From: Corallium rubrum
Taxonomy: Eukaryota; Cnidaria; Anthozoa; Scleralcyonacea; Coralliidae
Direction of reading: 5' to 3'
DNA: 64,000 nucleotides
Assembly (NCBI GenBank): GCA_964035015.1
Contig: OZ036008.1
Span: 11,113,692 to 11,177,691 of the forward strand
A program made the translations under genes and the position numbers. The notes under the pieces are model-generated. The model was not told the origin of the DNA and did not search any database. It saw only the letters and a list, made by a program, of their open reading frames with translations. Below, one piece after another: positions 3,901 to 48,500 of this stretch; the first letter of the stretch is position 1, and each line of letters opens with the position of its first letter.

Positions 3901-6900
3901 AAAATACAATTGTTAAATTTATTTAATTTAAATTTTTTTACAAGATTTACATTCAGCACCGATGTAACAATGTTCCTACATGTATTTTTAATTAATTTTA
4001 TTAGAAAAGTTCTAATTACTACAATTAGAAATATAACTTGTACCTCCTGATTGCATTATTACCAGAGGTTCCAAGGCAGGCTGGTTTGTTCTCATTATGT
4101 GATTGTACAACTTTTCAACACTACAGAGTTCATATAAAATTGATGAATTTTACAAAATTTTGAGAAGGAAGGACACGAAACTATCATGACTGATGGTTGA
4201 GATGAACAAAAACAGCCTTTACCGGGACATTAAATTACAAAACTTATAACTTTGGAAATCAACAGTACACTCATCTTTAACTTTATACAAAGTTCAAATT
4301 GAAATTAAAATCTCCTACATACCTCTGCCGACATCCTACGCAAGGTACAGTTTGTGATAAAAATGACAGGACTTCATTGTGTGTCACCATAAATGACACA
4401 GCCAGTTCATCAATAGTTAGATTCTGATATCTCTGCAAATAGAACGAAAAATCAGGTAATTGAAAACACCATCACCAAAAGAGATCACTCAAAAAGACCC
4501 TCCCAGTCACTCCATAGCTTTTCCAAAATATGTCCACTCGTCAAATATGTTTTTCCAAAAAGCTAGCCTAAGTGGTATTTAAACCAGATTTCTGTCTAGT
4601 GTCTGAGTCTTTGTTGTGATTAGGTTATCCAGAAGATTGCTAATATCTTGAGACCCACTGAAGCTTGAAGACAAATTTGGAAAAACAAATTTAATGACTT
4701 ATTTTGGAAAAGCTGTGGAAAGATTGGAAGAGTCCTTTGGAGCCATCCTTTTTAGTGATAACCAATTGGAAAGTTTCAAGGGGGGGGGGGGGTATAATTC
4801 AGGAAGGGAAAGTTCAAGGACATTTATTAGTTGTTTTTGAATAACTTTAGACTGTGTTGTTTGCACCTAAGCAGAAACACCACCCATGAAAACATGTTCA
4901 AAAGTTAACTGTTTTGAAATTGACACCGAGGGATTGACAAGTTGTGATTGGCTAAGAGCACAAACATGTACGTATTGAAGGGATACATAATATGTTTAAA
5001 ATTTTATGTTTGATATTGAAATAGAACACGTTTTGATGGCCGGTGTTTCCACTTAATGGGTACAAGCAACTGTATTATACTGTACAGTACTTACTTTCAT
5101 AAAACCATCCAAACCTTCTGAAGATTCACAGTGTTTATCAGCAGTCAGAAAACTTTTGGGGATTTCCATGATTAACTGTATATAAAATAGAAAGAAAAGA
5201 ACATTCCTATAATCTTTATAACTAACTTTGGGTCTTACACAAAGTTTAAGAAACTCAAAGAAAATATGTAATGTATTCCCCACTTGTGGAAAAACCTTGG
5301 TATTACAGTATTAACCTATTGCTGCCTAGTGCCTAGGATGTCAGAGAGTTTTCCCTTTGACAAGTCAAATCGTCGGGCATTAGACAGGGTACAAAAATAA
5401 AGATGATGATAGTGGTTGTGATAGTGATGGTAATGGTGGTGGTTTGTAATGGTGATGCTAATGACAGTGGTTATAGTGATTGAGGTGGTGATGATGGTGG
5501 CAGTGATAGTGTTAGTAACAGTAGTGATAGTGGTAGTGATAGTGGTGGTGATAGTGGTAGTGGTGGTGATGGTAATGGTTTGTAATGGTGATGCTAATGA
5601 CAGTGGTTATAGTGATTGAGGTGGTGATGATAGTGGCAGTGATAGTGGTAGTAACAGTAGTGATAGTGGTAGTGATGGTGGTGGTGGTGGTGATGGTAAT
5701 GGTTTGTAATGGTGATGCTAATGACAGTGGTTATAGTGATTGAGGTGGTGATGATGGTGGCAGTGATAGTGGTAGTAACAGTAGTGGTAGTAACAGTAGT
5801 GATAGTGGTAGTGATAGTGGTGGTGATAGTACTATAGTAGTGATAGTAGTGGTGGTGATGGTAGTACCTAGTAGTGGTGGTGGTAATGGTGGTGATAGTA
5901 ATAATGGTGGTGGTGGCAATAGTGGTAGTGTTAATGGTGGTAGCAGTCATAGCAATAGTAGTAGTGGTGGTAATGGTGGTGGTAATGGTGATGGTGGCAA
6001 TAGTGGTAGTGTCAGTGGTGGTAGTAGTCATAGAAATAGTAGTAGTGGTGGTAATGGTGGTGATGGTAGTGGTGGTAGTGGTGATAGTGGTGGTAGTGAT
6101 AGTGTTAGTGGCAGTAACGATAGTGATCATGCTAGTGATAATGGTGGTGCTAGTGATAGTGGTGGTGGTGGTGACAGTGGTGGTGATGGTGGTGGTAGCA
6201 ATAGCAGTAGTGGTAATAATGGTGGTGACGGTACTGTGGTATGTTTTTGGCTGGCTCAGGTAGGAATGGGTTAAAATACAGGTTATTAAATACAGGTTAT
6301 TAAATTAAATTAATAAAAATCTATTTGAACTATTTCTTATATGAACTAAATTATATCTTGATAAATTTAGTTTATAATAATAATAATTTTTCTTTTTAAA
6401 TGAAGCAATTTTATAGACTTCTCTGATTTGTACCCAGTCGTCTCTGGAAATTTGAGGTTTGTGGCCTGATGGGAATGTGCAGGTTTGATTATTCCCATAA
6501 TGCACCATCAAAGTTCACCAACCTCACTTTCCCATTGCACCTGCAAATTCCCCCTGGCCCTATTAATTTTAAGATGGGCAAGATCTTAGATGAAACAAAG
6601 ACAACTGGGTACAAGTTGGTAGACTTCTAACATTTGTGAGACATATTTGTAAATTGATCCCATGAGCTTATTGATTGATATTATAATCAAAACAAATCAA
6701 TAAGAATTAACAGGAACCTTTGATTATCTATTAATAAACATTGATTGTTATTGGTTGATATTGACTTCTAGTAGCTATTAATTTCATTGATTGCATGTGT
6801 CAAAATATCTTGGAATGAACTTCAATTTCAAATAACTAATTAGCAAACTACGTATAAAACCAAAAACAGTAACCACATGCATTTGCCATTTTTGAAACCT

Positions 6901-9161: not shown

Positions 9162-10700
9162 ATGGAATCCCTCGACCAAGGATATGCCGACAGTCGTTTT
9201 GCTACTGCTGTGGATGAAGATCTTCACTGCCCGATCTGTCTGAACGTCCTCAAAGATCCGCTACAATGCCAAATGAACGAACATTATTTTTGCACTCCTT
9301 GTATCACAAGGCATTTAGGCAATTTCCAAACCTGTCCTTCCTGTATGGAAGAGCTGTCGGTGAAGACGCTGAGAAAGCCTGCGAGATACCTCACCAAGCA
9401 CTTGTCGAAACTCGACATCCGTTGTGAGAATGAAAACCGAGGATGCCCCGAGTTTGTGAAGCTGGAAGATTTGAACAGTCATCTCGCAATCTGTGGTTTC
9501 GCTCCCGTGACTTGCCCAAATAATGGCTGCAGCCAGGTGATCAACAAACAAGATATGATCCGACATGAGAATGAGATTTGTGAGTTAAGAAAGACAAAGT
9601 GCCATGAGTGTGCTGAGATGAGAATAGAAATGGGCCAGATGAGAGAAGAGATGAGCCAGATGAGAGAAGAGATAGTAGGCCAACTGAATATGTCTTTTGC
9701 AGAATTAAAAGACCAAATGAGCAAGATAATCAATGTAGTTGAAATGAAAGGAGTTCTGAATCCAAGTCCAAGTCTCCATGTTCCTCTTCCAGTTGAAAGC
9801 AAAGAAGACATCATTGTGGTTGGAGGGTATAATGGTGTTGATCGACTCGTGTCTGCTGAGATGTTTGTGTGGTCCAAGAACAAGTGGTTGCCGTTAAATG
9901 ATGTAAATAAGCCTCGTTCATGTTCATCCTCAACATTGTACAAAAACCAGTTGCTTGTTACAGGAGGACGGACTGGTCAAAACAGTGTCATTGATAGCAT
10001 CGAGGCATTGTGTATTGATAAGCAACCAACCCAGTGGATTTCTTATCCAGCCAAGCTACCATACCCATGCAGTGGCCACAGTTGTATTGTTTACCAAGAT
10101 CGTCTTATAGTTGTTGGTGGACTGGTGGCAAACAATGGTAAGGTCTCCAATGGCATCCATGAATTACGTCTCACTCCACCTTATACTTCTAAGCTTTTGT
10201 CATTGATGCCACAACCAAGAAACTGTCATGGAACCGTGTGTTTTGGTGATGAGATTGTAATTGTTGGAGGAGCAACTGGCTATAATTTTAATCACATGAA
10301 GAGTGTGCTGTTGTTTAATATCAAAACCAACAAATGTAAAACAATCACCCCATTACCTTACCCCATTAGTTCTATGGCCACAGTAAAGTGGGGTGACAAT
10401 GTTATATTATTAGGAGGGGTGAATTATCATGGTGAAGCATTAAATACTGTAATGATGTACAATATTAAAACAGGGAACACCCACATGTTACCAGCCATGT
10501 TACATGAGAGATCAAGCTGTACAGCTGTTGTGACTGGCAATATGATTATTGTAATGGGGGGGTTTAACAAGGAGCAAAGAAAATTTTTAAATACTGTAGA
10601 ATACTTCAGTTTTGCTAGCTTTTCATGGACTGAACTTCCCTCAATGAATGAAAGAAGGTCTTCTGCTACAGCTGTAGTGAAGCCAGTGAACTTTGCATAG
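9162..10700 (+). CDS. RING / TRAF-zinc-finger / Kelch protein, gene 1
   Basis: Intronless gene of 512 residues, probably an E3 ubiquitin ligase or adaptor. A RING lies at about 23-61 with ligands C23, C26, C36, H41, C44, C47, C58 and C61. TRAF-type zinc fingers span 88-140, and a Met/Glu/Arg-rich coiled coil spans about 150-198. Six Kelch repeats (GG doublets such as IVVGGYNG and ILLGGVN) run from 215 to the end. The RING spacing C-x4-H is unusual: an Asn sits where NRDP1-type RINGs carry the third Cys. The order of parts resembles TRAF7, but with a Kelch propeller in place of WD40. The coil has two 7-residue GQMREEM-type units, fewer than paralogues 3, 4 and 6. The ATG at 9162 is chosen because GCCAAAGCATGGAATCCCTCGA is shared by all copies. 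It is the first gene of the array, and its upstream region lacks the hairpin module of the others. Confidence 0.9.
   Translation: MESLDQGYADSRFATAVDEDLHCPICLNVLKDPLQCQMNEHYFCTPCITRHLGNFQTCPSCMEELSVKTLRKPARYLTKHLSKLDIRCENENRGCPEFVKLEDLNSHLAICGFAPVTCPNNGCSQVINKQDMIRHENEICELRKTKCHECAEMRIEMGQMREEMSQMREEIVGQLNMSFAELKDQMSKIINVVEMKGVLNPSPSLHVPLPVESKEDIIVVGGYNGVDRLVSAEMFVWSKNKWLPLNDVNKPRSCSSSTLYKNQLLVTGGRTGQNSVIDSIEALCIDKQPTQWISYPAKLPYPCSGHSCIVYQDRLIVVGGLVANNGKVSNGIHELRLTPPYTSKLLSLMPQPRNCHGTVCFGDEIVIVGGATGYNFNHMKSVLLFNIKTNKCKTITPLPYPISSMATVKWGDNVILLGGVNYHGEALNTVMMYNIKTGNTHMLPAMLHERSSCTAVVTGNMIIVMGGFNKEQRKFLNTVEYFSFASFSWTELPSMNERRSSATAVVKPVNFA
9630..9671 (+). repeat. 21-bp coding minisatellite, 2 units (gene 1)
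   Basis: Two units of about 21 bp, consensus ATGGGCCAGATGAGAGAAGA, code for 7-residue MGQMREE blocks in the coiled-coil stalk. Genes 3, 4 and 6 have about 5, 6 and 4 units, and genes 2 and 5 have one. Confidence 0.85.
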
Positions 10701-20696: not shown

Positions 20697-22286
20697 ATGG
20701 AATCCCTCGAGCAAGGATATGCCGACAGTCGTTTTACTACAGCTGTGGATGAAGATCTTCACTGCCCGATCTGTCTGAACGTCCTCAAAGATCCGCTACA
20801 ATGCCAAATGAACGAACATTATTTTTGCACTCCTTGCATCACACGGCATTTAAGCAATTTCCAAACCTGTCCTTCCTGTATGGAAGAGCTGTCGGTGAAG
20901 ACGCTGAGAAAACCTGCGAGATACCTCACCAAGCACTTGTCGAAACTCGACATCCGTTGTGAGAATGAAAACCGAGGATGCCCCGAGTTTGTGAAGCTGG
21001 AAGATTTGAACAGTCATCTCACAATCTGTGGTTTCGCTCCCGTGACTTGCTCAAACAATGGCTGTAGCCAGGTGATCAACAAACAAGATATGATCCGACA
21101 TGAGAATGAGATTTGTGAGTTAAGAAAGACAAAGTGCCATGAGTTCGCTGAGATGAGAATCGAAATGGGCCAGGTGAGAGAAGATATGGGCCAGATGAGA
21201 GAAGAGATGAGAGGAGATATGGGCCAGATGAGAGAAGAGATGCACCAGATGAGAGAAGATATGGGCCAACTGAATATGTCTTTTGCAGAATTAAAAGACC
21301 AAATGAGCAAGATAATCAATGTAGTTGAAATGAAAGGAGTTCTGAATCCAAGTCCAAGTCTCCATGTTCCTTGTCCGGTTGAAGGCAAAGAAGACATCAT
21401 CGTGGTTGGAGGGTATAATGGTGTTGATCGACTCTTGTCTGCTGAGATTTTTGTGTGGTCCAAGAACAAGTGGTTGCCATTAAATGATGTAAATGAGCCT
21501 CGCTCAGGTTCATCATCAGCATTGTACAAAAACCAGCTGCTTGTTACAGGAGGACGGACTGGTGAACACAGTCTCATTGATAGCATCGAGGCATTGTGTC
21601 TTGACAAGCAACCAGCCCAGTGGTCTTATTATCCAGCCAAGCTACCATACCCATGCAGTGGCCACAGTTGTATTGTTTATCAAGATCATCTTATAGTTGT
21701 TGGTGGGCTGATGGCAAGCAATGGTAAGGGCTCCAATAGCATCCATGAAGTACGTCTTACTCCACCGTATACTTCTAAGCTTTTATCATTGATGCCACAA
21801 CCAAGAAGCCATCATGGAACTGTGTGTTTTGGTGATGAGATTGTAATCATTGGAGGATCAGCTGGCTACTATTGTAATCACATGAAGAGTGTGTTGTTGT
21901 TTAATATCAAAACCGACAAGTGTAAAATAATTACCCCGTTACCTTACGCTGTTAGTTGTATGGCCACAGTGAAGTGGGGTGACAATGTTATATTATTAGG
22001 AGGGCAGAATTATCATGGTGAAACATTAAATACTGTAATGATGTACAATATTAAAACAGGGAACACCCACATGTTACCAGCCATGTTACATGAGAGAGCA
22101 AGCTGTACAGCTGTTGTGACTGGCAATATTATTGTTGTAATAGGGGGGTGTAACCTCAAGCAAGGAACATTTATAAATACTGTAGAATATTTCAGTTTTG
22201 CTAAGTTTTCATGGACTGAACTTCCCTCGATGAATGAAAGAAGATCTGCTGCTTCAGCTGTAGTCAAGCCAGTGAACTTTGCATAG
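20697..22286 (+). CDS. RING / TRAF-zinc-finger / Kelch protein, gene 3
   Basis: Intronless, 529 residues, the longest intact member. The RING (23-61), TRAF fingers (about 88-140), coiled coil and six Kelch repeats are all open. The extra length lies in the coil, which has about five 7-residue units (MGQVRED, MGQMREE, a short MRGD unit, MGQMREE, MHQMRED). A cysteine just before the coil (KCHEC in paralogues) is Phe here (KCHEF). Blades 4-6 share SCMATVKWGD and GGQNYHGET with genes 4 and 6. The promoter box is separated from the ATG by the transposon at 19312-20674, so expression may now depend on sequence inside that element. The coding frame itself is undamaged. Confidence 0.9.
   Translation: MESLEQGYADSRFTTAVDEDLHCPICLNVLKDPLQCQMNEHYFCTPCITRHLSNFQTCPSCMEELSVKTLRKPARYLTKHLSKLDIRCENENRGCPEFVKLEDLNSHLTICGFAPVTCSNNGCSQVINKQDMIRHENEICELRKTKCHEFAEMRIEMGQVREDMGQMREEMRGDMGQMREEMHQMREDMGQLNMSFAELKDQMSKIINVVEMKGVLNPSPSLHVPCPVEGKEDIIVVGGYNGVDRLLSAEIFVWSKNKWLPLNDVNEPRSGSSSALYKNQLLVTGGRTGEHSLIDSIEALCLDKQPAQWSYYPAKLPYPCSGHSCIVYQDHLIVVGGLMASNGKGSNSIHEVRLTPPYTSKLLSLMPQPRSHHGTVCFGDEIVIIGGSAGYYCNHMKSVLLFNIKTDKCKIITPLPYAVSCMATVKWGDNVILLGGQNYHGETLNTVMMYNIKTGNTHMLPAMLHERASCTAVVTGNIIVVIGGCNLKQGTFINTVEYFSFAKFSWTELPSMNERRSAASAVVKPVNFA
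21165..21270 (+). repeat. 21-bp coding minisatellite, about 5 units (gene 3)
   Basis: Repeats of ATGGGCCAGATGAGAGAAGA type, with one shortened unit (ATGAGAGGAGAT). Copy number differs from every other paralogue. Confidence 0.85.
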
Positions 22287-25611: not shown

Positions 25612-25628
25612 ATGGAATCCCTCGAGCA
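25612..25628 (+). pseudogene. RING-Kelch gene 4, orphaned 5' end
   Basis: This is ATGGAATCCCTCGAGCA, the first five codons and two bases of the sixth, complete with normal promoter context. The palindromic element starts at the next base. The rest of the gene resumes at 34183, and the last six bases here (CGAGCA) are repeated there. Confidence 0.85.
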
Positions 25629-25754
25629 TATGAGGCGCCATTTGTAAAATAATTATTTAGTAGGTATTTCGCATTATTTCACGTTATTTAGTTGATTCGA
25701 TATCATTATTTACTAACAATTAATTCTTTTAACGAAAGCATGGTATATTGTTGC

Positions 25755-26035
25755 ATACATAATGTGCGCATTATTTATAAATAATAAAATTTATTTACAT
25801 ATAACGTTTACATTATTTATAAATAATAAAATTTATTTACATATAACGTTTACATTATTTACAAATAATAAAATTTATTCTTAAAACAGTGGTTCATTAT
25901 ATACAAATAACATACACTTTATTTCTTACTGTCCACTTTGTTTACATATAATGTGCGCATTATTTATATATAATGCATGCATTATTTATATATAAACATG
26001 CATTATTTATATATAATGCATGCTTTGTTTATATA
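25755..26035. repeat. Subterminal AT-rich tandem repeats, left arm
   Basis: Repeats of TTATTTATAAATAATAAAAT and of CGCATTATTTATATATAATGC-like words alternate. They are mirrored at about 33775-34055 in the right arm. Subterminal repeats of this kind often serve as transposase binding sites (inference). Confidence 0.7.
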
Positions 26036-26298
26036 CATCCAAATATAAATATGAAATTATTTATCGTTTTATTTTCAATTTATGAATCATACCAATAATT
26101 TGTAAATAAAAACGACTGCATTTCATGTAAAAAATTAAAGTATGTTTATAAAAAATGATTTCATTGTATGCGCAGCATTATATGCGCGCAAGGTATTCCC
26201 GCGGTAAAATCTGACCCGAGTTTGGTACGCGAGTATTGCGCGGGAAACACGTTCGACGCAATTCTCATTTGCGCGGGAAACAGCACTCAAAGAAGACG

Positions 26299-29200
26299 AT
26301 GGCGAGCAATCGAGTTGACTCGGCTGCCCTTGGCAGGATAATCGCCAACGCTGTCTCTCATTATCTCGATAACGAACAGGTACGATTAATTTGTGATTGT
26401 TAATTTGTTCTACATCATTTGCATGTTAAACGTTGTCTTTGACAAATCATAGTTACTAGTAATATAACCCGACACAAATGCTGTCTGTGTTTACATGGCT
26501 AGAGTATAAACGAACCATCAAGTAATTCAACTTCAAGGGAAGCTCCTGTCAATAGAAATACAAACGAGAGTCGGAGTCCGTCTGTTCAGACGCGTCTGCC
26601 ATCGTTGTTTGGTGGTGTTAGTAGAAACGCATTACGTCCAACTAATTCAAGCGTAAACAACGAACAGGACAAACCAACGTCGACACAAAGACAGAATGCA
26701 CCGAAGCGAAAACGGTCGACATCCGGTGTGGTAGGGAAAACAAAGACATGGAATAAAGACGTTGTGTGTCTTCCCGAAAGTATGTTTGAAAACAACAGTA
26801 CGATTCCGATACCAAGAGGGCGTCAGCGTGGTGAAATAGCGCAAAGAGAACTTATCGGCAAAATTCGTTTGGTGTCTTCATGGACAGCACGAGAGGTAAA
26901 ACAAATATTTAATAATGGAATAATGCACCTTTATAGGGGGGAGGGATCGGGCGTTCCTGGATATTTTTATGCGAATTTTTTTCGATCAATAGATGTTCAT
27001 CAAATTTCTTTATTCGCTTGAATCTATCTTCAGTGTGAGGCAGACTTTAAAAAAGTAGTCTTTAGGGAAGTATAATGAAATTCCTGTATATCCTTGGACC
27101 ATCATCCATGTATGCGTATGAATGAGGATAGATAAGATAGATAGATAGATAACTTTATTTAAACACGCTTACAACGTCAACAAAAGCTGATTTCCACGAT
27201 GGGCGTGTACCACTGACTCATATATAACAGTTATACAACCGACAACTCGCGTATAACGGTTATACAATGGTTATATGTAGGTCAGTGGAGTGCACACTAA
27301 GTAAGAATAGATAATAGATAATTTATATGCTATAGTAAAAAAGTAAGTAACGGGCACCACTGACTTACACATAACCGTTTTAAAATTCACAGTTACATAT
27401 AGGTCAGTGGAGTGCATACTAAGTAAAGAACAAATTTATATGCTATAGTAAAAAAATATAACGGGTGTGCACCACTGATCTACATGCATATAACAGTTTA
27501 AACAGACTAAAGGATGGTCAAATGTCTCACATCTGGATACCCACCATACCCCCTGGGTTTGCAATAAGATAATTCGTGATTTATATTGTGCTGTGATTTA
27601 TAGGAATGCACATTTATGTGTGTATAACTGAATAGATAAATTAAATAGGTATAGCTATATATTTACAATACATGAAATAGTTATTAAGTTGTAGGTGTTG
27701 GTTTTTATAAATATAATTGTATGTACATTGTATAGTATACAAGGTCTTTACTCTAGAGGGTTCATTATTTATAGGGAGGGGGTGGCAAATGGGTAGGGGG
27801 TGGTGGCAAAGAATATGTTAGATACATATAAAATACTAAAATAGGACACAATAGATTGATTATAAAAGTTTCAATTTCTTGTTGGTTTGTATATTGGGTC
27901 ATTCCAGAAAACATCCACACCTCCCCCACGGAGGAAATGTGAAGTTGACCCCCTCCCCTCTTCGGATGTCCTAGTACATTTTACTATTATCAGAAATAGA
28001 TTTACCTCCCTCCCCTCCCCAGATGGCACAAATTTCCTCTGTGGGAGAGGTATGGATCTTTTCTGGAATGACCCATTGTGCCTTCAGTGTCTATTTTTGA
28101 TAGAAACTACAAGTATCATTCATCACAGTATAAATCACAAAAAAAACACCTAAAATATATATATTATCATAAAAAAAAGAACAGCACTGACATTTATTAA
28201 ACATACTCTATTGTATAGCAACAACATACAATTTGATTCCGCATGGTCAGAATATTCCATAAAGGCCCTGTTCAGCAAGAATGGGTTAATGATATTGTCC
28301 TACCTCTTAAATCAGATTTGGGAATACATGTACATGTACTAATTTTCCGTGACCCTCTGTAACTGTCATTCTAAAGGCTAGTTTCCACTTAGGAAAATTT
28401 TCTGGATGTCTGGAACGGATAGGGAAGTTTTCTTTATCTTGTGTGCTCTCTGTTGGAACTAATGACTTTAATACAAAGGAAACTACTATCCAAACTACTA
28501 TCCTGTCCATTCCTATCCTGTGGAGGATTTTCTTGAGTGGAAACTAGCCCTAACCATCTGTGATCTGTATTTGTAATAAACTAGTTTCTATTTAAGGATT
28601 TAGGAAATTTTAATTGAAAACTTTTATTAATTAATTGCATACACACTTAGCGGGTTTAACATTTCACTCTTTCTCCAGACTGCAGAGTTGGGCAATGGTG
28701 CACACCCCTGACTTCTATTGTGCAACAATTTTTGATGCCTCATCTGCCCCTATACCATTCTCTGGGCAATGTATTTTCAGGACTTTAGGACTTTACAGTA
28801 TTTCAGGACTTTTTGGTTTAACTGAAACATCTCCCCTGCCTGCCCCTGATTGCACCCCTGGGACATCTTTTGCACCCATGCCCCGAGATTTTACAGCTTT
28901 TGTGCACCTGAGATCTCGGTGAAAACTGCCCAACTCTGCAGTCTGGCTGTTTCACTCAATGAAATAGAAAAATGCACGCACCAATAGTATGACCAAAAAA
29001 TCCACCTTTTCTTTCTTTGCTTATTATGCAATCTAATTTCTAGAGGAACCCATTGGAGATATCAAATTGATATCAATGATACTACATGTAATTGTCTTAT
29101 TTAAAATCTCAATTAGGTGAGAGAGGAGATATCATCAATCTTCAAACATTTGTTTGTACTGGGGGAACATGAATTGATCCAATATGATTACCTCACCACT

Positions 29201-29344
29201 GTTCCTGGCATGAAGCGTCTGAAAAAACCAAATGTTTCAACAACATTTAGCTGGAATGGACAAGAAGTGGCCTCCCTAGCTGGCCAAGGGTCGTTATATG
29301 TAGTGGCCAAGTCTGCATTGAAATGCAAAGTTGATCTAAGAGAG
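26299..29344 (+). CDS. Truncated three-exon gene in the left arm of the palindrome
   Basis: Exons are 26299-26379, 26503-26895 and 29117-29344, all phase 0 with GT-AG borders, coding for 234 residues. The peptide starts MASNRVDSAALGRI. A Ser/Asn/Arg-rich segment with a basic KRKR stretch follows, then a structured part containing WNKDVVCLPES, RELIGKIRL and LAGQGSLYVVAKSALKCK. No stop is reached: the next exon would lie past the palindrome centre, so the gene is a 5' half. I do not recognise it with confidence. The WN.D.VCL pattern faintly recalls the N-terminal region of uncharacterised HECT-type proteins of fish and cnidarians. It could be the transposon's own gene or a captured host gene. 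An identical peptide is encoded in the right arm, so the frame is conserved in both copies. Confidence 0.6.
27131..27152. repeat. (GATA)n microsatellite, mirrored at about 32657-32680
   Basis: A short run of GATA units in the left arm, with the complement in the right arm. It is followed by several related words ACAGTTATACAACC / CACTGACTTACATATAACC, a local degenerate repeat within the element. Confidence 0.6.
27880..28075. repeat. Short inverted repeat inside the left arm
   Basis: GGGTCATTCCAGAAAACATCC (27897 on) and the complement-like GGATCTTTTCTGGAATGACCC (28053 on) bracket a purine/pyrimidine-rich stretch. It is probably a small MITE inside the big element, duplicated in the right arm at about 31737-31917. 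Confidence 0.6.
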
Positions 29345-30465
29345 GTAACTTACTGTGTGTTTACACTAGTATTAGTACATGTATACATGCATGCGACCCA
29401 AGTAAGATATTGTTTTTTAAAGGAATGAAGAATATATTTTTCAAATATTTTTTTATTTGCGTGCAATCACATATAAGCCCTTAAATTAAATGTACTTTAT
29501 GTAACAGTTCCTGCAGACAGAGGCTGAATGTTAAAAATCTGTTTTGCGTAGTTCCAGAAAATATACATTACCACCTCCCCAGGGTCATGGATATTTTCTG
29601 AAACTACACATTTCAAAAGTAATAACAAATGTCTTTTCTTGCCAAGGTCCAGTGTGAATGCACTGTATTTGCAATATAGCATCTGCAATACTGTAAAAAT
29701 ACAGTAATTGAGACTTTGAGGTCTTGTTAACACGTTTAAGAATACTGGTAAACCTATTGAAAAAACCCTGGATACCCCCTATTGATTGGTAATCATGCTT
29801 TGGTTTAATTTCTAGTCTGGGGATGTATTCACTTAAAAGGGTGGTAAATATTATTAAACTTGTTCTTATGGTGGTAAATGGTTATTGACTTTCCTGGCTA
29901 TACCGGTATAGCCAGGAAAGTCAATAACCATTTACCACCATAAGAACAAGTTTAATAATATTTACCGCCCTTTTAAGTGAATACATCCCCAGACTAGAAA
30001 TTAAACCAAAGCATGATTACCAATCAATAGGGGGTATCCAGGGTTTTTTCAATAGGTTTACCAGTATTCTTAAACGTGTTAACAAGACCTCAAAGTCTCA
30101 ATTACTGTATTTTTACAGTATTGCAGATGCTATATTGCAAATACAGTGCATTCACACTGGACCTTGGCAAGAAAAGACATTTGTTATTACTTTTGAAATG
30201 TGTAGTTTCAGAAAATATCCATGACCCTGGGGGAGGTGGTAATGTATATTTTCTGGAACTACGCAAAACAGATTTTTAACATTCAGCCTCTGTCTGCAGG
30301 AACTGTTACATAAAGTACATTTAATTTAAGGGCTTATATGTGATTGCACGCAAATAAAAAAATATTTGAAAAATATATTCTTCATTCCTTTAAAAAACAA
30401 TATCTTACTTGGGTCGCATGCATGTATACATGTACTAATACTAGTGTAAACACACAGTAAGTTAC

Positions 30466-33400
30466 CTCTCTTAGATCAACTTTGCATTTCAATGCAGACT
30501 TGGCCACTACATATAACGACCCTTGGCCAGCTAGGGAGGCCACTTCTTGTCCATTCCAGCTAAATGTTGTTGAAACATTTGGTTTTTTCAGACGCTTCAT
30601 GCCAGGAACAGTGGTGAGGTAATCATATTGGATCAATTCATGTTCCCCCAGTACAAACAAATGTTTGAAGATTGATGATATCTCCTCTCTCACCTAATTG
30701 AGATTTTAAATAAGACAATTACATGTAGTATCATTGATATCAATTTGATATCTCCAATGGGTTCCTCTAGAAATTAGATTGCATAATAAGCAAAGAAAGA
30801 AAAGGTGGATTTTTTGGTCATACTATTGGTGCGTGCATTTTTCTATTTCATTGAGTGAAACAGCCAGACTGCAGAGTTGGGCAGTTTTCACCGAGATCTC
30901 AGGTGCACAAAAGCTGTAAAATCTCGGGGCATGGGTGCAAAAGATGTCCCAGGGGTGCAATCAGGGGCAGGCAGGGGAGATGTTTCAGTTAAACCAAAAA
31001 GTCCTGAAATACTGTAAAGTCCTAAAGTCCTGAAAATACATTGCCCAGAGAATGGTATAGGGGCAGATGAGGCATCAAAAATTGTTGCACAATAGAAGTC
31101 AGGGGTGTGCACCATTGCCCAACTCTGCAGTCTGGAGAAAGAGTGAAATGTTAAACCCGCTAAGTGTGTATGCAATTAATTAATAAAAGTTTTCAATTAA
31201 AATTTCCTAAATCCTTAAATAGAAACTAGTTTATTACAAATACAGATCACAGATGGTTAGGGCTAGTTTCCACTCAAGAAAATCCTCCACAGGATAGGAA
31301 TGGACAGGATAGTAGTTTGGATAGTAGTTTCCTTTGTATTAAAGTCATTAGTTCCAACAGAGAGCACACAAGATAAAGAAAACTTCCCTATCCATTCCAG
31401 ACATCCAGAAAATTTTCCTAAGTGGAAACTAGCCTTTAGAATGACAGTTACAGAGGGTCACCGAAAATTAGTACATGTACATGTATTCCCAAATCTGATT
31501 TAAGAGGTAGGACAATATCATTAACCCATTCTTGCTGAACAGGGCCTTTATGGAATATTCTGACCATGCGGAATCAAATTGTATGTTGTTGCTATACAAT
31601 AGAGTATGTTTAATAAATGTCAGTGCTGTTCTTTTTTTTATGATAATATATATATTTTAGGTGTTTTTTTTTGTGATTTATACTGTGATGAATGATACTT
31701 GTAGTTTCTATCAAAAATAGACACTGAAAGCACAATGGGTCATTCCAGAAAAGATCCATACCTCTCCCACAGAGGAAATTTGTGCCATCTGGGGAGGGGA
31801 GGGAGGTAAATCTATTTCTGATAATAGTAAAATGTACTAGGACATCCGAAGAGGGGAGGGGGTCAACTTCACATTTCCTCCGTGGGGGAGGTGTGGATGT
31901 TTTCTGGAATGACCCAATATACAAACCAACAAGAAATTGAAACTTTTATAATCAATCTATTGTGTCCTATTTTAGTATTTTATATGTATCTAACATATTC
32001 TTTGCCACCACCCCCTACCCATTTGCCACCCCCTCCCTATAAATAATGAACCCTCTAGGGTAAAGACCTTGTATACTATACAATGTACATACAATTATAT
32101 TTATAAAAACCAACACCTACAACTTAATAACTATTTCATGTATTGTAAATATATAGCTATACCTATTTAATTTATCTATTCAGTTATACACACATAAATG
32201 TGCATTCCTATAAATCACAGCACAATATAAATCACGAATTATCTTATTGCAAACCCAGGGGGTATGGTGGGTATCCAGATGTGAGACATTTGACCATCCT
32301 TTAGTCTGTTTAAACTGTTATATGCATGTAGATCAGTGGTGCACACCCGTTATATTTTTTTACTATAGCATATAAATTTGTTCTTTACTTAGTATGCACT
32401 CCACTGACCTATATGTAACTGTGAATTTTAAAACGGTTATGTGTAAGTCAGTGGTGCCCGTTACTTACTTTTTTACTATAGCATATAAATTATCTATTAT
32501 CTATTCTTACTTAGTGTGCACTCCACTGACCTACATATAACCATTGTATAACCGTTATACGCGAGTTGTCGGTTGTATAACTGTTATATATGAGTCAGTG
32601 GTACACGCCCATCGTGGAAATCAGCTTTTGTTGACGTTGTAAGCGTGTTTAAATAAAGTTATCTATCTATCTATCTTATCTATCCTCATTCATACGCATA
32701 CATGGATGATGGTCCAAGGATATACAGGAATTTCATTATACTTCCCTAAAGACTACTTTTTTTAAAGTCTGCCTCACACTGAAGATAGATTCAAGCGAAT
32801 AAAGAAATTTGATGAACATCTATTGATCGAAAAAAATTCGCATAAAAATATCCAGGAACGCCCGATCCCTCCCCCTATAAAGGTGCATTATTCCATTATT
32901 AAATATTTGTTTTACCTCTCGTGCTGTCCATGAAGACACCAAACGAATTTTGCCGATAAGTTCTCTTTGCGCTATTTCACCACGCTGACGCCCTCTTGGT
33001 ATCGGAATCGTACTGTTGTTTTCAAACATACTTTCGGGAAGACACACAACGTCTTTATTCCATGTCTTTGTTTTCCCTACCACACCGGATGTCGACCGTT
33101 TTCGCTTCGGTGCATTCTGTCTTTGTGTCGACGTTGGTTTGTCCTGTTCGTTGTTTACGCTTGAATTAGTTGGACGTAATGCGTTTCTACTAACACCACC
33201 AAACAACGATGGCAGACGCGTCTGAACAGACGGACTCCGACTCTCGTTTGTATTTCTATTGACAGGAGCTTCCCTTGAAGTTGAATTACTTGATGGTTCG
33301 TTTATACTCTAGCCATGTAAACACAGACAGCATTTGTGTCGGGTTATATTACTAGTAACTATGATTTGTCAAAGACAACGTTTAACATGCAAATGATGTA

Positions 33401-33512
33401 GAACAAATTAACAATCACAAATTAATCGTACCTGTTCGTTATCGAGATAATGAGAGACAGCGTTGGCGATTATCCTGCCAAGGGCAGCCGAGTCAACTCG
33501 ATTGCTCGCCAT
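30466..33512 (-). CDS. Truncated three-exon gene in the right arm of the palindrome
   Basis: This is the mirror copy of the left-arm gene. Exons on the minus strand are 33432-33512, 32916-33308 and 30466-30693, with the same lengths (81, 393, 228), phases and splice signals. The two copies point toward each other and both end before the centre. As far as I can see the coding exons are identical between arms, while most visible differences lie in introns and flanks. A transcript crossing the centre would form a very long hairpin, so double-stranded RNA from this locus is plausible (inference). The identity of the protein is unknown, as for the left-arm copy. Confidence 0.6.
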
Positions 33513-34182
33513 CGTCTTCTTTGAGTGCTGTTTCCCGCGCAAATGAGAATTGCGTCGAACGTGTTTCCCGCGCAATACTCGCGTACCAAACTCGGGTCAG
33601 ATTTTACCGCGGGAATACCTTGCGCGCATATAATGCTGCGCATACAATGAAATCATTTTTTATAAACATACTTTAATTTTTTACATGAAATGCAGTCGTT
33701 TTTATTTACAAATTATTGGTATGATTCATAAATTGAAAATAAAACGATAAATAATTTCATATTTATATTTGGATGTATATAAACAAAGCATGCATTATAT
33801 ATAAATAATGCATGTTTATATATAAATAATGCATGCATTATATATAAATAATGCGCACATTATATGTAAACAAAGTGGACAGTAAGAAATAAAGTGTATG
33901 TTATTTGTATATAATGAACCACTGTTTTAAGAATAAATTTTATTATTTGTAAATAATGTAAACGTTATATGTAAATAAATTTTATTATTTATAAATAATG
34001 TAAACGTTATATGTAAATAAATTTTATTATTTATAAATAATGCGCACATTATGTATGCAACAATATACCATGCTTTCGTTAAAAGAATTAATTGTTAGTA
34101 AATAATGATATCGAATCAACTAAATAACGTGAAATAATGCGAAATACCTACTAAATAATTATTTTACAAATGGCGCCTCATA

Positions 34183-35785
34183 CGAGCAAGGATATGCCGA
34201 CAGTCGTTTTACTACAGCTGTGGATGAAGATCTTCACTGCCCGATCTGTCTGAACGTCCTCAAAGATCCGCTACAATGCCAAATGAACGAACATTATTTT
34301 TGCACTCCTTGCATCACAAGGCATTTAGGCAATTTCCAAACCTGTCCTTCCTGTATGGAAGAGCTGTCTGTGAAGACGCTGAGAAAACCTGCGAGATACC
34401 TCACCAAGCACTTGTCGAAACTCGACATCCGTTGTGAGAATGAAAACCGAGGATGCCCCGAGTTTGTGAAGCTGGAAGATTTGAACAATCATCTCACAAT
34501 CTGTGGTTTCGCTCCCGTGACTTCCTCAAACAATGGCTGTAGCCAGGTGATCAACAAACAAGATATGATCCGACATGAGACTGAGATTTGTGAGTTAAGA
34601 AAGACAAAGTGCCATGAATGTGCTGAGATGAGAATAGAAATGGGCCAGATGAGAGAAGATATGGGCCAGATGAGAGAAGAGATGGGCCAGATGAGAGAAG
34701 AGAAGGGCCAGATGAGAGAAGATATGGGCCAGATGAGAGGAGATATGGGCCAGATGAGAGAAGAGATAGTAGGCCAACTGAAGATGTCTTTTGCAGAATT
34801 AAAAGACCAAATGAGCAAGATAATCAATGTAGTTGAAATGAAAGGAGTTCTGAATCCAAGTCCAAGTCTCCATGTTCCTTGTCCAGTTGAAGACAAAGAA
34901 GACATCATCGTGGTTGGAGGGTATAATGGTGTTGATCGACTTGTGTCCTCTGAGATGTTTGTGTGGTCCAAGAACAAATGGTTGCCTCTAAACGATGTAA
35001 ATGAGCCTCGCTCAGTTTCATCCTCAACATTGTACAAAAACCAGCTGCTTGTTGTAGGAGGACGGACTGATCAACACAATCTCATTGATAGCATCGAGGC
35101 ATTGTGTATTGATAAGCAACCAGCCCAGTGGTCTTATTATCCAGCCAAGCTACCATACCCATGCAGTGGCCACAGTTGTATTGTTTACCAAGATCGTCTT
35201 ATAGTTATTGGTGGACTGAAGGCAAGTAATAATAAGGGCTCCAATAGCATCCATGAAGTACATCTCACTCCACCTTATACTTCGAAGCTTTTGTCATGTA
35301 TGCCACAACCAAGAAACCATCATGGAACTGTGTGTTTTGGTGATGAGATTGTAATCATTGGAGGATTAGCTGGCTATAGTTGTAATCACATGAAAAGTGT
35401 GTTGTTGTTTAATATCAAAACCAACATGTGTAAAGCAATTACCCCACTGCCTTACCCCATTAGTTGTATGGCCACAGTGAAGTGGGGTGACAATGTTATA
35501 TTATTAGGAGGACAGAATTATCATGGTGAAACATTAAATACTGTAATGATGTATAATATTCAAACAGGAGAAACCCACATGTTACCAGCCATGATACATG
35601 AGAGAGCATCTGTTGTGACTGGCAATATGATTGTTGTAATCGGGGGGCATAACAAGGAGCAAAGAAAAATTTTAAATACTGTGGAATATTTTAGTTTTGC
35701 TAGTCTTTCATGGACTGAACTTCCCTCAATGATTGAAAGAAGGTCTTGTGCTACAGCTGTAGTGAAGCCAGTGAACTTTGCATAG
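34183..35785 (+). pseudogene. RING-Kelch gene 4, body without start codon
   Basis: Coding resumes at GAGCAAGGATATGCC and stays open to 35785 through the RING, TRAF fingers, coiled coil and six Kelch repeats. The ATG is stranded at 25612. Reading back into the element in the coding frame there is no ATG before an in-frame TGA, so a full protein could only be made by splicing or by starting inside the RING. Other changes are VTC to VTS in a TRAF-finger cysteine, and loss of four residues in the last blade (RSSCTAVVTG in relatives, RASVVTG here). It has the longest coil, about six 7-residue units. Because the frame is otherwise clean, the disruption is recent. Confidence 0.85.
34640..34765 (+). 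repeat. 21-bp coding minisatellite, about 6 units (gene 4)
   Basis: Six units in a row of ATGGGCCAGATGAGAGAAGA type (one begins AAGGGCCAG). This is the highest copy number in the family. Confidence 0.88.
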
Positions 35786-37806: not shown

Positions 37807-39308
37807 ATGGAATCCCTCGAACAAGGATATGCCGACAGTTGTTTTACTACTGCTGTTGATGAAGATCTTCACTGCCCGATCTGCCTGAACGTCCTCAAAG
37901 ATCCGCTACAATGCCAAATGAACGAACATTATTTTTGCACTCCTTGCATCACAAGGCATTTAGGCAATTTCCAAACCTGTCCTTCCTGTATGGAAGAGCT
38001 GTCGGTGAAGACGCTGAGAAAACCGGCGAGGTACCTCACCAAGCACTTGTCGAAACTCGACATCTGTTGTGAGAATGAAAACCGAGGATGCCCCGAGTTT
38101 GTGAAGCTGGAAGATTTGAACAGTCATCTCACAATCTGTGGTTTCACTCCCGTGACTTGCTCAAACAATGGCTGCAGCCAGGTGATCAACAAACAAGATA
38201 TGATCCGACATGAGAATGAGATTTGTGAGTTAAGAAAGACAAAGTGCCATGAGTGTGCTGAGATGAGAATAGAAATGACGCAGATGAGAAAGGAGATGAA
38301 GGAGTCTTTTTTGCAGAATTAAAAGACCAAATGAACAAGATAATCAATGTAGTTGAAATGAAAGGAGTTATGAATCCAAGTCTCCATGTTCCTTGTCCAG
38401 TTGAAGGCAAAGAAGACATCATCGTGGTTGGAGGGTATAATGGCGTTGATCGACTTGCGTCCTCTGAGATGTTTGTGTGGTCCAAGAACAAATGGTTGCC
38501 ATTAAATGATGTAAATGAGCCTCGCTCAGCTTCATCATCAGCATTGTACAAAAACCAGCTGCTTGTTACAGGAGGACGGACTGGTGACCACAGTGTTATT
38601 GATAGCATCGAGGCATTGTGTATTGATAAACAACCAGCCCAGTGGTCTTATTATCCAGCCAAGCTACCATACCCATGCAGTGGCCACAGTTGTATTGTTT
38701 ACCAAGATCGTCTTATAGTTGTTGGTGGACTGATGGCAAATAGTGGTAAGGTCTCCAATGGCATCCATGAAGTACATCTCACTCCACCTTATACTTCTGA
38801 ATTTTTGTCACTTATGCCACAACCACGAAATTTACACGGAACCGTGTGTTTTGGTGATGAGATTGTAATAGTCGGAGGAGCAACTGGCTATTATTGTAAT
38901 CGCATGAAAAGTGTGTTGTTGTTTGATATCAAAACCAACAAATGTAAAATGATCACTCCACTGCCTTACGCTGTTAGTTCTATGGCCACAGTAAAGTGGG
39001 GGGACCATGTCATTTTATTAGGAGGGGCAAATTATCATGGTGAAACATTAAATACTGTAATGATGTACAATATTAAAACAGGAGAAACCCACATGTTACC
39101 AGCCATGATACATGAGAGATTAAACTGTACAGCTGTTGTCAGTGGCAATATTATTGTTGTAATGGGAGGAGTTGATATGGAGCAAAGAAAATATATAAAT
39201 ACTGTAGAATACTTCAGTTTTGCTAGCTTTTCATGGACTGAACTTCCCTCGATGATTGAAAGTAGGTCTTCTGCTACAGCTGTAGTGAAGCCAGTGAACT
39301 TTGCATAG
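37807..39308 (+). pseudogene. RING-Kelch gene 5, frameshifted in the coiled coil
   Basis: The first frame codes for the RING, TRAF fingers and the start of the coil and stops at 38322. The second frame, from about 38331, codes for the whole Kelch propeller. The break is a run of six T at 38307-38312 where the sister gene 2 has four (GAGTCTTTTGCAG), so two extra bases are present. It could be a pseudogene, a sequencing error in a homopolymer, or two separable products: a RING/TRAF protein of 171 residues and a Kelch protein. Blades 4-6 match gene 2 closely. One coil-proximal Arg is Cys (DICCENEN). The promoter also carries an insertion. Confidence 0.8.
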
Positions 39309-45562: not shown

Positions 45563-48500
45563 TCAACTTAAAAATTTCATTTCAAACTTCCTCAAAAACA
45601 ACTTACTTATTGTGTTTCCTATTTGTGGTTTATTCTTACAGCCTATCCGTTCAATATCCTCCATCTCTCGCAATATGGCTTGGTCAAACGCCATGGCTGC
45701 TGTTCTCGTAAATAACGAACTAACATTTTCGCCTAAAAACAAAAGAAAACGTATTAACGCTTTCCCTGCTGTTGTGGCCTTTTAGTATTTTACTCTGGCT
45801 ATTTTACTCATCAAGGGAAGAACCCTAGTGAAGGACATTGCGTTTGGCCAAATTTGATTTCCAAAAACGCAATGGTCAAAAAGTGATACCTGTTTTTGAC
45901 GAAACGCTCCAATACTCGGCGTTTACTTCGGCAGCTATCCCTATTGCATGTTCTTCCATTTTTTCAAGATCAATGGGTTTCTATGGGGAGAAATTGAAGA
46001 AAAAGCATTCCAGCTGAACAACATCTCCTGGCTCCTGAATAAAGACAAATTCAATGAGCCATTCAAATTGCTGTATGTCAAAATATATTCATTGCTTACA
46101 CAAAGATCTTTCTTTGTACCAATAAGAAAAACATCGGGGCTATGATTAGCATTCTCAGTCATAGCTTCGTTGAGCCATCGTCTGGAAATCAAGAGCAAAG
46201 AATGTAAACTGACAAAGACGGTAGAGGGAGGGGGTGTTAATAATTATCCTGCAGATATCAGATGTGACCCATGTACTGTCATGAGTGATTATCATCAGCA
46301 GATCTGTCATCATTTAGTGACAGTTAGTGATGTCATCATTTAATGACAGCATCAGTTAGTGACATCATCTGTTACTAATGTCAATGTTTAGTGACATCAT
46401 CAGTTGGTGATGTTACCCTTTAGTGACATCATCGGTTAGTAATATCATCCGTTAGTGATGTCATCCACTAATGATGTCATCAGTTAATAGCATCATCAGT
46501 CATCTGTTAGTGGCATCATCAGTTAACGACATCACAGTTAGTGATGTCATCAGTTAGTGACATCATCAGTTAGTGACATCACCAGTTAGTGACATCAACA
46601 GTTAGTGACATCATCAGTTAGTGACATCATCAGTTAGTGACATCATCAGTTAGTGACATCATCAGTTAACGACATCACAGTTAGTGACATCATCAGTTAG
46701 TGACATCATCAGTTAGTGACATCATCAGTTAGTGATGTAATCAGTTAGTGACACAATCATTTAGTGACATCATCAGTTAGTGACATCATCATTTTGTGAC
46801 ATCATCAGTTAGTGATATCATCAGTTAGTGACATCATCAGTTAACGACGTCACAGTTAGTGATGTCATCAGTTAGTGACATCATCAGTTAGTGACATCAT
46901 CATTTCGTGACATCATCAGTTAGTGACATCATCAGTTAGTGACATCGTCAGTTAGTGACATAATAATTTAGTGTCATCAGTTAGTGATCTCAATGACTAG
47001 TGACATCATCGATTGATGATATCATCAGTTAGCGATGTCATCAATTAATGATGTCACAAGTTAGTGATGTCATCAGTTAGTGATGTCATTGACTAGTGAC
47101 ATCATCAGTCAGTGACATCATCATTTAGTGATGTTAAATTAAATATTTTATGTCACACCTTGCACCATCCAAAGATTTGATATCACTCAAATCAAACACC
47201 ACCAATATAACTAAAAATAGAAAAATGTGTTTTGTTCTTTGAACATGAATATCCCCTCATCCTCAATCAAGATTGAATAGCCTAAAGTTGTAAAATGTTA
47301 AACAAATTATAAAAAAAATGTTGGTGACATCAAAATTGAGAACTTTACCATGTGCTCCTCTGAAGTATGCAGACGCTATACATTTGAACCTCTCTTGACC
47401 AGCTGTGTCCCATCTAACAAAACACAACATTAAAATGGAAGACATTTATGCTTTTCTCCATTTTCTTCACTTAGAAATCAGACCTTTTATAAAACATTTG
47501 AAGAGTACGGACTACCTACATTTGCATGTTGAAAGGTTGGCCCAAAATTGAATAATATTCCATTTGAAAATCAACACCAATCGTAGCTTTGTAGTCAGTT
47601 TCAAATACATCCTTGCAGTACCTATTGAAAAATATCAAGCCTGACTGTTATAAAAAAATAAACTGATCAATGTTTAAAACTAATTAATTAACTCATTAAT
47701 TAATTAATAATTTAATTAATTAATTTTTATTTATTTATTTATTTCATCACAAGACAATATACATATTAAAAATAGATATGAAAGAAGAAAATAATAATTT
47801 TACAGTGATGGGGAATCTACAAGAAAGCAAAATTTGCTTGTTTGGCATAGATCCCTTTTATAGAAAATAGAAAATAGAAAATAGAACTAGTATATATACA
47901 CCCTCAAGCCCATTACACAACATCTAAATATTGATGCTGCATAATAAGCCCAAGAAGGTACTTACTGTCATATTGACTTAATATAACATTGTTGGTATAG
48001 CCTAGAAAATTGTTTTAAAGTGCATTTACTATTTCACATACTGTATACATATAATTATGATGAAACAATATTTAAACCTAATTGCAGCCTTTTTTTAATA
48101 AATGAATTTTTACCTTTTTTTAAATTGGTATAATGATTTACATTAAGTAATGAATTAACACATTAATAAACTAATGAATTAACAAATTAATGAACTAATG
48201 AATTAACAAAGACAATATAACAAACTAAGGTCCTGTTTTCATGAAGCAGATTGAATGTTCAAGTCAAATCCCGCATGTTGTTTCTCCTTGTTGTGTTTAC
48301 ATGAAGAAGATTGGAAGTTTTGATCTGAATGGCTGAAGTTAATCCACACTGGAATGGATAAATTTACTGGCAAATATTATTGACTGAGATATTTACATGT
48401 ACCTGTTAACTAATGATGTTTTGCCAACAGCAACATCCCCAATGACTATTGTCTTACAAACTTTCATTCTGAACAAAACACATAATAAATTGTTATCTAT

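Follow-up and report, generated by a model that had tools for sequence, protein, structure and literature searches.

A spacer-free palindromic fold-back element of Corallium rubrum, derived from an IS3EU-like transposon and probably formed at a hAT excision break

Analysis of a window of Corallium rubrum DNA (the whole stretch analysed, 64,000 nucleotides of contig OZ036008.1, assembly GCA_964035015.1; the genome comprises 474 Mb in 312 contigs) revealed a spacer-free 8.55-kb palindrome at positions 25629-34182, with its dyad between 29904 and 29905, inserted in a RING/Kelch gene. Judged from its tips, its arms and its genomic relatives, it is best explained as a non-autonomous fold-back element derived from an IS3EU-like transposon of 12.6 kb. 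We consider it fairly probable that the excision of a nested hAT element broke the parent, that two identical left ends were fused head to head, and that the product was transposed to its present site.

Comparison of the window sequence with itself defined arms of 4276 bp and 4278 bp (Table 1), which differ by five substitutions and four one-base homopolymer indels over 4,279 aligned columns, corresponding to 99.8% identity; an inverted repeat of 4.28 kb at this identity is, judged from its length rather than by shuffling, no chance match. The hexamer CGAGCA is present on both sides, and the insertion point lies behind the second base of codon 6 of the host gene (ATG GAA TCC CTC GAG CA/A, the slash marking the insertion), so that the palindrome starts 17 bases from the A of the start codon. 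Joining of the flanks gave a sequence continuous across the site, like the paralogues at 20697 (one CGAGCA) and 37807 (one CGAACA). The first-pass annotation had described this palindrome, its arm identity, its target duplication and its position at codon 6, and its coordinates proved exact. With inverted arms making up nearly the entire element and a target duplication on both sides, the structure is that of a fold-back element. It contains the HECT-side 4.28 kb of the parent twice, with presumed upstream exons of a HECT-type gene, and the transposase is absent. Large spacer-free palindromes are usually unstable. A search of the 474-Mb genome for the central 24-mer found a single place and no second one.

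Relatives were sought genome-wide using the outer 601 bp as query, scores being obtained for the best candidates only. Three copies with both tips were recovered: a 12,622-bp parent copy at C26:254591-267212 (C26) with the 6-bp duplication CTTCAT, a copy at C49:9639232-9652403 (C49b) with the duplication TTCCAA and a short insertion near one end, and a copy at C49:9331035-9368516 (C49a) with the duplication GTGACA and approximately 26 kb of extra DNA inside. Target duplications of 6 bp were found in all four two-tip copies in hand, the window's included, which bears out the earlier claim of a mobile element with a 6-bp target duplication, the other three each having their own. The relatives in C1, C12, C53 and C49 near 6.246 Mb, with one exact tip each in the fetched DNA, stand outside this count; the C1 relative is partial, its match, tip pieces aside, stopping at element position 9477. 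The terminal repeats of C26 are about 610 bp long and 95% identical to each other. The left arm is 99.5% identical to C26 across the first 4.25 kb and 98% identical to C1, with deletions in C1, the latter being alignable to arm position 4275.

Two rearrangements within family members were observed in addition. The foreign DNA of about 26 kb in C49a occupies C49:9340387-9366340, at a simple-repeat stretch, and the C1 copy has a small tip fold-back of its own (C1:17389154-17389395), in which element positions 1-129 are followed by 137-26 inverted and then by 991 onward.

The C26 copy has 18 stop-to-stop frames of at least 90 amino acids, eight of which were scanned against Pfam. A minus-strand frame of 392 amino acids, close to the right end, matched the integrase core rva_4 (E-value 2.7e-65), rve and HTH, with a catalytic spacing of D-56-D-32-E in motifs chosen by eye; this transposase frame is intact in C26 and C49b, and in C49a it is split in two. 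A plus-strand frame, convergent with the transposase, gave the end of a HECT domain (E-value 6.6e-12), and a third frame contained a hAT dimerisation domain (E-value 9.1e-09). The other five of the eight scanned frames matched no family.

The termini read TATGAGG..CCTCATA in all four two-tip copies, following the TA..TA rule. In complete IS3EU families, TA..TA termini are always and 6-bp duplications usually present (PMC10045372, in the part available), and IS3EU members of rust fungi have 6-bp duplications and TAYGG..CCRTA ends (PMC12730594, in part). Termini, duplication length and a DDE integrase-type transposase, found in the parent and not in the palindrome, point to an IS3EU-like DNA transposon of 12.6 kb, an assignment made from these characters rather than from a phylogeny with Repbase members. 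The first-pass annotation had seen no known superfamily in the tips, which does not hold in view of these features; the check that it had proposed, a search by tip for non-palindromic relatives, did find such copies with a transposase, and it is these parents that point to IS3EU. The parent shares with IS3EU (with GingerRoot) the 6-bp duplication, the TA..TA ends, a transposase of the DDE integrase type that matches HTH at its N-terminus, and an opposed second gene; in fungal TET-bearing IS3EU families, an alpha-kinase gene is opposite in orientation to the transposase (PMC12730594, in part). It differs in its terminal repeats of about 610 bp and in having a HECT partner gene; its tip, TATGAGG, diverges after TATG, at the fifth base, from the TAYGG of the rust-fungus families, and the window element differs in being a palindrome of one end without transposase. 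Polinton/Maverick elements likewise make 6-bp duplications (PMC10045372, in part). This class was rejected, as the Pfam scan (eight of the 18 C26 frames, shorter or spliced parts lying outside it) showed only integrase, HTH, hAT-dimerisation and HECT matches.

The origin of the palindrome was read from its centre, for which C1, C26, C49a and C49b were set against it around arm positions 4180-4276. C1 reads ..CCTGGCTATACGTTAAGG.. at the centre position and has no hAT element, whereas C26 holds there a 1,082-bp element with the ends TAGAGATGAGCC..GGCTCATCTCTA (TAGAG..CTCTA), followed by GCTATACGTTAAGG. TAGAG-type ends are usual for hAT elements. C49b holds the same 1,082-bp element at this position; its right border was missed by string search, and its continuity follows from alignment and genome search. 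The family is multi-copy, with at least 46 matching pieces in the genome (40 of 404 candidates scored), and copies elsewhere had a perfect 8-bp target duplication at the TAGAG..CTCTA borders in 8/8 sampled cases. An 8-bp target duplication is the rule for hAT elements (Hermes; PMC10368747, in part), and the element has the 8-bp duplication, short inverted ends and the dimerisation domain given above, the left duplication at the IS3EU site being imperfect. From these borders and the perfect duplications elsewhere it follows that the right duplication here is GCTATACG and that C1 represents the unoccupied site. The palindrome arm reads ..CCTGGCTATAC, then C, then its mirror, i.e. the parent sequence is kept through the first seven bases of the 8-bp target site, the eighth being exchanged for its complement. 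C49a has no hAT and a scar at C49:9335283-9335290, with a single C in place of G-hAT-G.

hAT transposases leave hairpins on the flanking DNA. For Ac/Ds, hairpins on the flanks and excision scars centred on the complement of the base adjoining the transposon have been described (PMC5873905, in part). The opening of such hairpins was written as a rule, by which the last base of a flank is lost and a single-base 3' overhang, complementary to the lost base, is added; the rule was written with both sequences already in view, and few letters are tested by it. Applied to the C26 state, left and right overhangs pair and the predicted scar is identical to C49a, while a rule without overhang pairing gives a scar one base longer, unlike C49a. 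When it was applied to two left flanks of the C1 sequence, the C and C overhangs remained unpaired and both were filled, giving GCTATACC/GGTATAGC (slash at the dyad), identical to the window.

These data suggest the following course of events. A parent copy would have received a hAT insertion at 4.28 kb from its HECT-side end, with duplication of GCTATACG, and the hAT would later have been cut out by hAT transposase, with the flanking ends closed as hairpins. Upon opening at the tip, each left end would have acquired a single C, the complement of the duplication's final base, and two identical left ends, most simply those of sister chromatids, would have been joined head to head and not left to right, to give the observed centre. 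Since the product is bounded by two IS3EU ends, transposase from other copies could move it, and the 8.55-kb unit would thus have entered codon 6 of the RING/Kelch gene under formation of the 6-bp duplication. Supply in trans is made plausible by the many transposase relatives in the genome, with at least 106 matches at identities down to 36% (105 of 1257 candidates scored), three of them in fetched family members. The presence of the hAT in this copy's parent, the fusion of sister ends and transposition after formation are what we infer; for the first of these, we rely on position and scar, because no copy with both the hAT and an undeleted left flank survives among those compared.

Variants were counted to arm position 4238 only, with gap columns in the first five rows dropped. 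Nine sites set both arms apart from C26, C49a and C49b, C1 siding with those three at four and being gapped at five. At each of the five arm-arm substitution sites, one arm has a base found in no other copy, four being private to the right arm and one to the left. Two copies of one molecule that diverged later would show such a pattern, and as each of these substitutions is private, there is no sign of an origin of the arms from two separate copies. A fusion of two different family members was accordingly rejected, as neither arm shares a variant with only some of the other copies. A simple local inverted duplication of host DNA was likewise rejected, the arms being transposon and ending at the target duplication. 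No ungapped site unites C26, C49a and C49b against the palindrome and C1, but these three copies do share, against the other two, a deletion of about 28 bp next to the hAT site.

Consistent differences between left- and right-type terminal repeats are confined to the part from position 327 inward, in which both palindrome tips are of the left type, as predicted by the transposition of a dimer with two left ends. An alternative would be conversion in place: a full-length IS3EU element at this site would have lost its internal hAT by excision, and its right half; its right terminal repeat would have served for copying the left half inward as far as the broken end, the copy being joined to the original break. 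This explains the hAT scar as well as the first reading does, and likewise the target duplication, and no transposition of a palindrome is needed; the outer 326 bp, in which the tips of the two types are indistinguishable, would accommodate it. We nevertheless regard it as unlikely, since it requires that copying end, and joining take place, precisely at the hAT cut on either side, and that the switch fall within the outer 326 bp, the right arm being left-type from position 327 inward. The first-pass annotation had argued for one transposition event and against a local inverted duplication. The palindrome in fact arose when one end of a 12.6-kb element was duplicated in inverted orientation, most likely at an internal break; later transposition remains preferred over conversion in place, the tips being undecisive.

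The centre bears on two further alternatives. Three other models of it were compared with the window: replication through a hairpin left unopened, a blunt break at the edge of the target site, and a fold-back primed on the local ACGT; each mismatched (3/3). Inverted duplications at breaks are known (PMC10622511, in part), and an ordinary fold-back at a random internal break, by fold-back priming or replication template switch, could make the match to the hAT site a coincidence. This is improbable, as the centre falls, to the base, on a hAT target site of a 12.6-kb element, while priming on the local ACGT predicts another centre and a spacer is absent. An unopened hAT hairpin that was replicated through would use the same break and offers the simplest way to a perfect inverted dimer without end joining. 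It would leave an odd centre in which a single base is unpaired, GCTATACCGTATAGC, as against the observed GCTATACCGGTATAGC, and even though one base inserted later would reconcile the two, we hold this course to be very improbable. An assembly artefact, such as a self-folded read built into the contig, is hardly credible: homopolymer indels make up four of the nine arm differences, but the 6-bp target duplication, the unique host sequence on both sides, the empty-site paralogue and five substitutions each private to one arm are unexpected from a folded read; duplication, flanks and arm-private substitutions speak against such an error, if only indirectly.

Several observations weigh against formation by hAT excision and end fusion with later transposition. 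On the left side of the hAT, C26 and C49b have a deletion of about 28 bp and an additional G, and C26 has ATATACGG where GCTATACG would be expected left of the hAT, so that the left duplication is imperfect; among the copies compared, none had both the hAT and an undeleted left flank. The informative part of the window scar consists of its position and one base (C, mirrored), the centre is known from the assembled sequence alone, and the indistinguishable outer 326 bp of the terminal repeats would accommodate conversion in place. Genome searches revealed no palindrome of the IS3EU-like family besides that in the window, and the reading therefore rests on one case.

Table 1. Positions in the window of the palindrome's parts, its insertion site and the genes at the site.
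Feature	Positions	Strand	Remarks
Left arm	25629..29904	+	HECT-side end of IS3EU-like transposon; parent sequence for 4275 bases, then one base
Right arm	29905..34182	-	same 4.28 kb, inverted
Terminal inverted repeat of the parent, left type	25629..26238	+	tip TATGAGGCGCC
Second left-type terminal repeat	33573..34182	-	no right-type repeat from position 327 inward
Centre, GCTATACC/GGTATAGC	29897..29912		read as mirrored half of a hAT excision scar; parental hAT target site GCTATACG
AT-rich 42-bp subterminal tandem repeats within terminal repeat	25769..25879	+	mirror 33932-34042
Presumed upstream exon of the element's HECT-type gene	26605..27021	+	mirror 32820-33206 (-); no Pfam match of its own; assigned from strand and order
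Presumed further exon of the element's HECT-type gene	29117..29428	+	mirror 30382-30693 (-); no Pfam match of its own
Left target duplication CGAGCA	25623..25628		single copy in paralogue at 20697
Right target duplication CGAGCA	34183..34188
Host gene, start codon and first five and two-thirds codons	25612..25628	+
Rest of interrupted RING/Kelch gene	34189..35785	+
RING/TRAF-zinc-finger/Kelch paralogue with empty target site	20697..22286	+

Several similar RING/Kelch genes follow one another in the window, the interrupted gene among them. Those at 20697-22286, 34220-35785 and 37807-38322 contain a 21-bp repeat, AGATGAGAGAAGAGATGGGCC, whose copy number differs among the paralogues. Elsewhere in the window, at 46321-47131, about 50 copies of the 16-bp unit CAGTTAGTGACATCAT were found.

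As a side result, relatives of this transposase in the genome were often found with a convergent HECT ubiquitin-ligase gene. Among the matches listed, a HECT C-lobe lay within 6 kb of 35 of the 105 transposase-like loci (the 106 listed transposase matches minus the second piece of one C117 locus, set against 149 listed HECT matches), and 34 of the pairs were arranged tail to tail, e.g. C26:255395-258319, C13:13263330-13265269 and C299:239048-240736. Upon shifting the transposase positions by 50, 100, 200 and -100 kb, the same matches gave 2, 3, 3 and 3 pairs, respectively. The pairs are not fully independent of one another, as some loci are copies from a single family. In the literature searched by full text, no paper named both IS3EU and HECT.

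The origins of such palindromes are rarely readable; in the present case, the scar of formation is legible at single-base resolution. In this one case, a mechanism for the formation of a fold-back element, with a birth scar leading towards hAT excision, is supported. It would tie the maize Ac/Ds mechanism of hairpin cuts and sister-chromatid joining to the birth of a potentially mobile unit in another genome; if true, the centre of a long transposon palindrome would be expected to mark the target site of a nested hAT element, its final base being replaced by the complement. The palindrome has, in our estimate, an even chance of being the fossil of a hAT-induced chromatid fusion, in which the fused ends of another transposon became mobile, because the lesion had gained two ends; such events may generally yield large palindromes, and the one in the window, lying directly behind a host start codon, could be a natural silencer of the Mu killer kind for its IS3EU family. 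No report of such a hAT/fold-back composite was found in the literature searched, part of the matching literature having been surveyed.

The closest known structure is Mu killer of maize, a rearranged MuDR, in which, likewise, both terminal repeats derive from one end of an autonomous element, parts of genes are duplicated in inverted orientation and a host gene lies alongside (PMC3440606, in part). It belongs to the Mutator superfamily, and its inverted part is the transposase gene, in contrast to the HECT-side end in the window element; its centre is given in that part of the literature as unsequenceable, whereas the window centre is readable as a hAT scar. Mu killer silences the MuDR family, and the same paper disputes that the silencing RNA stems from read-through of the flanking gene (PMC3440606, in part); by analogy the window element may silence its own IS3EU-like family, which is put forward as a hypothesis only. 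Galileo, a foldback-like element of the P superfamily in Drosophila, resembles the window element in its non-autonomous copies that consist of two long terminal repeats alone, the repeats being longest in copies without transposase (PMC3573991, in part). The longest repeats given there for D. mojavensis are of about 1.26 kb, as compared to 4.28 kb here, where the arms are spacer-free and, as we read them, of one-step origin at an internal break. In the Ac/Ds system, sister-chromatid transposition can yield chromatid bridges and flanking inverted duplications (PMC3744419, in part), and its excision scars, which have the complement of the border base at their centre (PMC5873905, in part), are of the type seen here. 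Unlike in Ac/Ds, the fused flanks in the window are the ends of a second, unrelated transposon, by which the lesion would have been turned into a potentially mobile unit.

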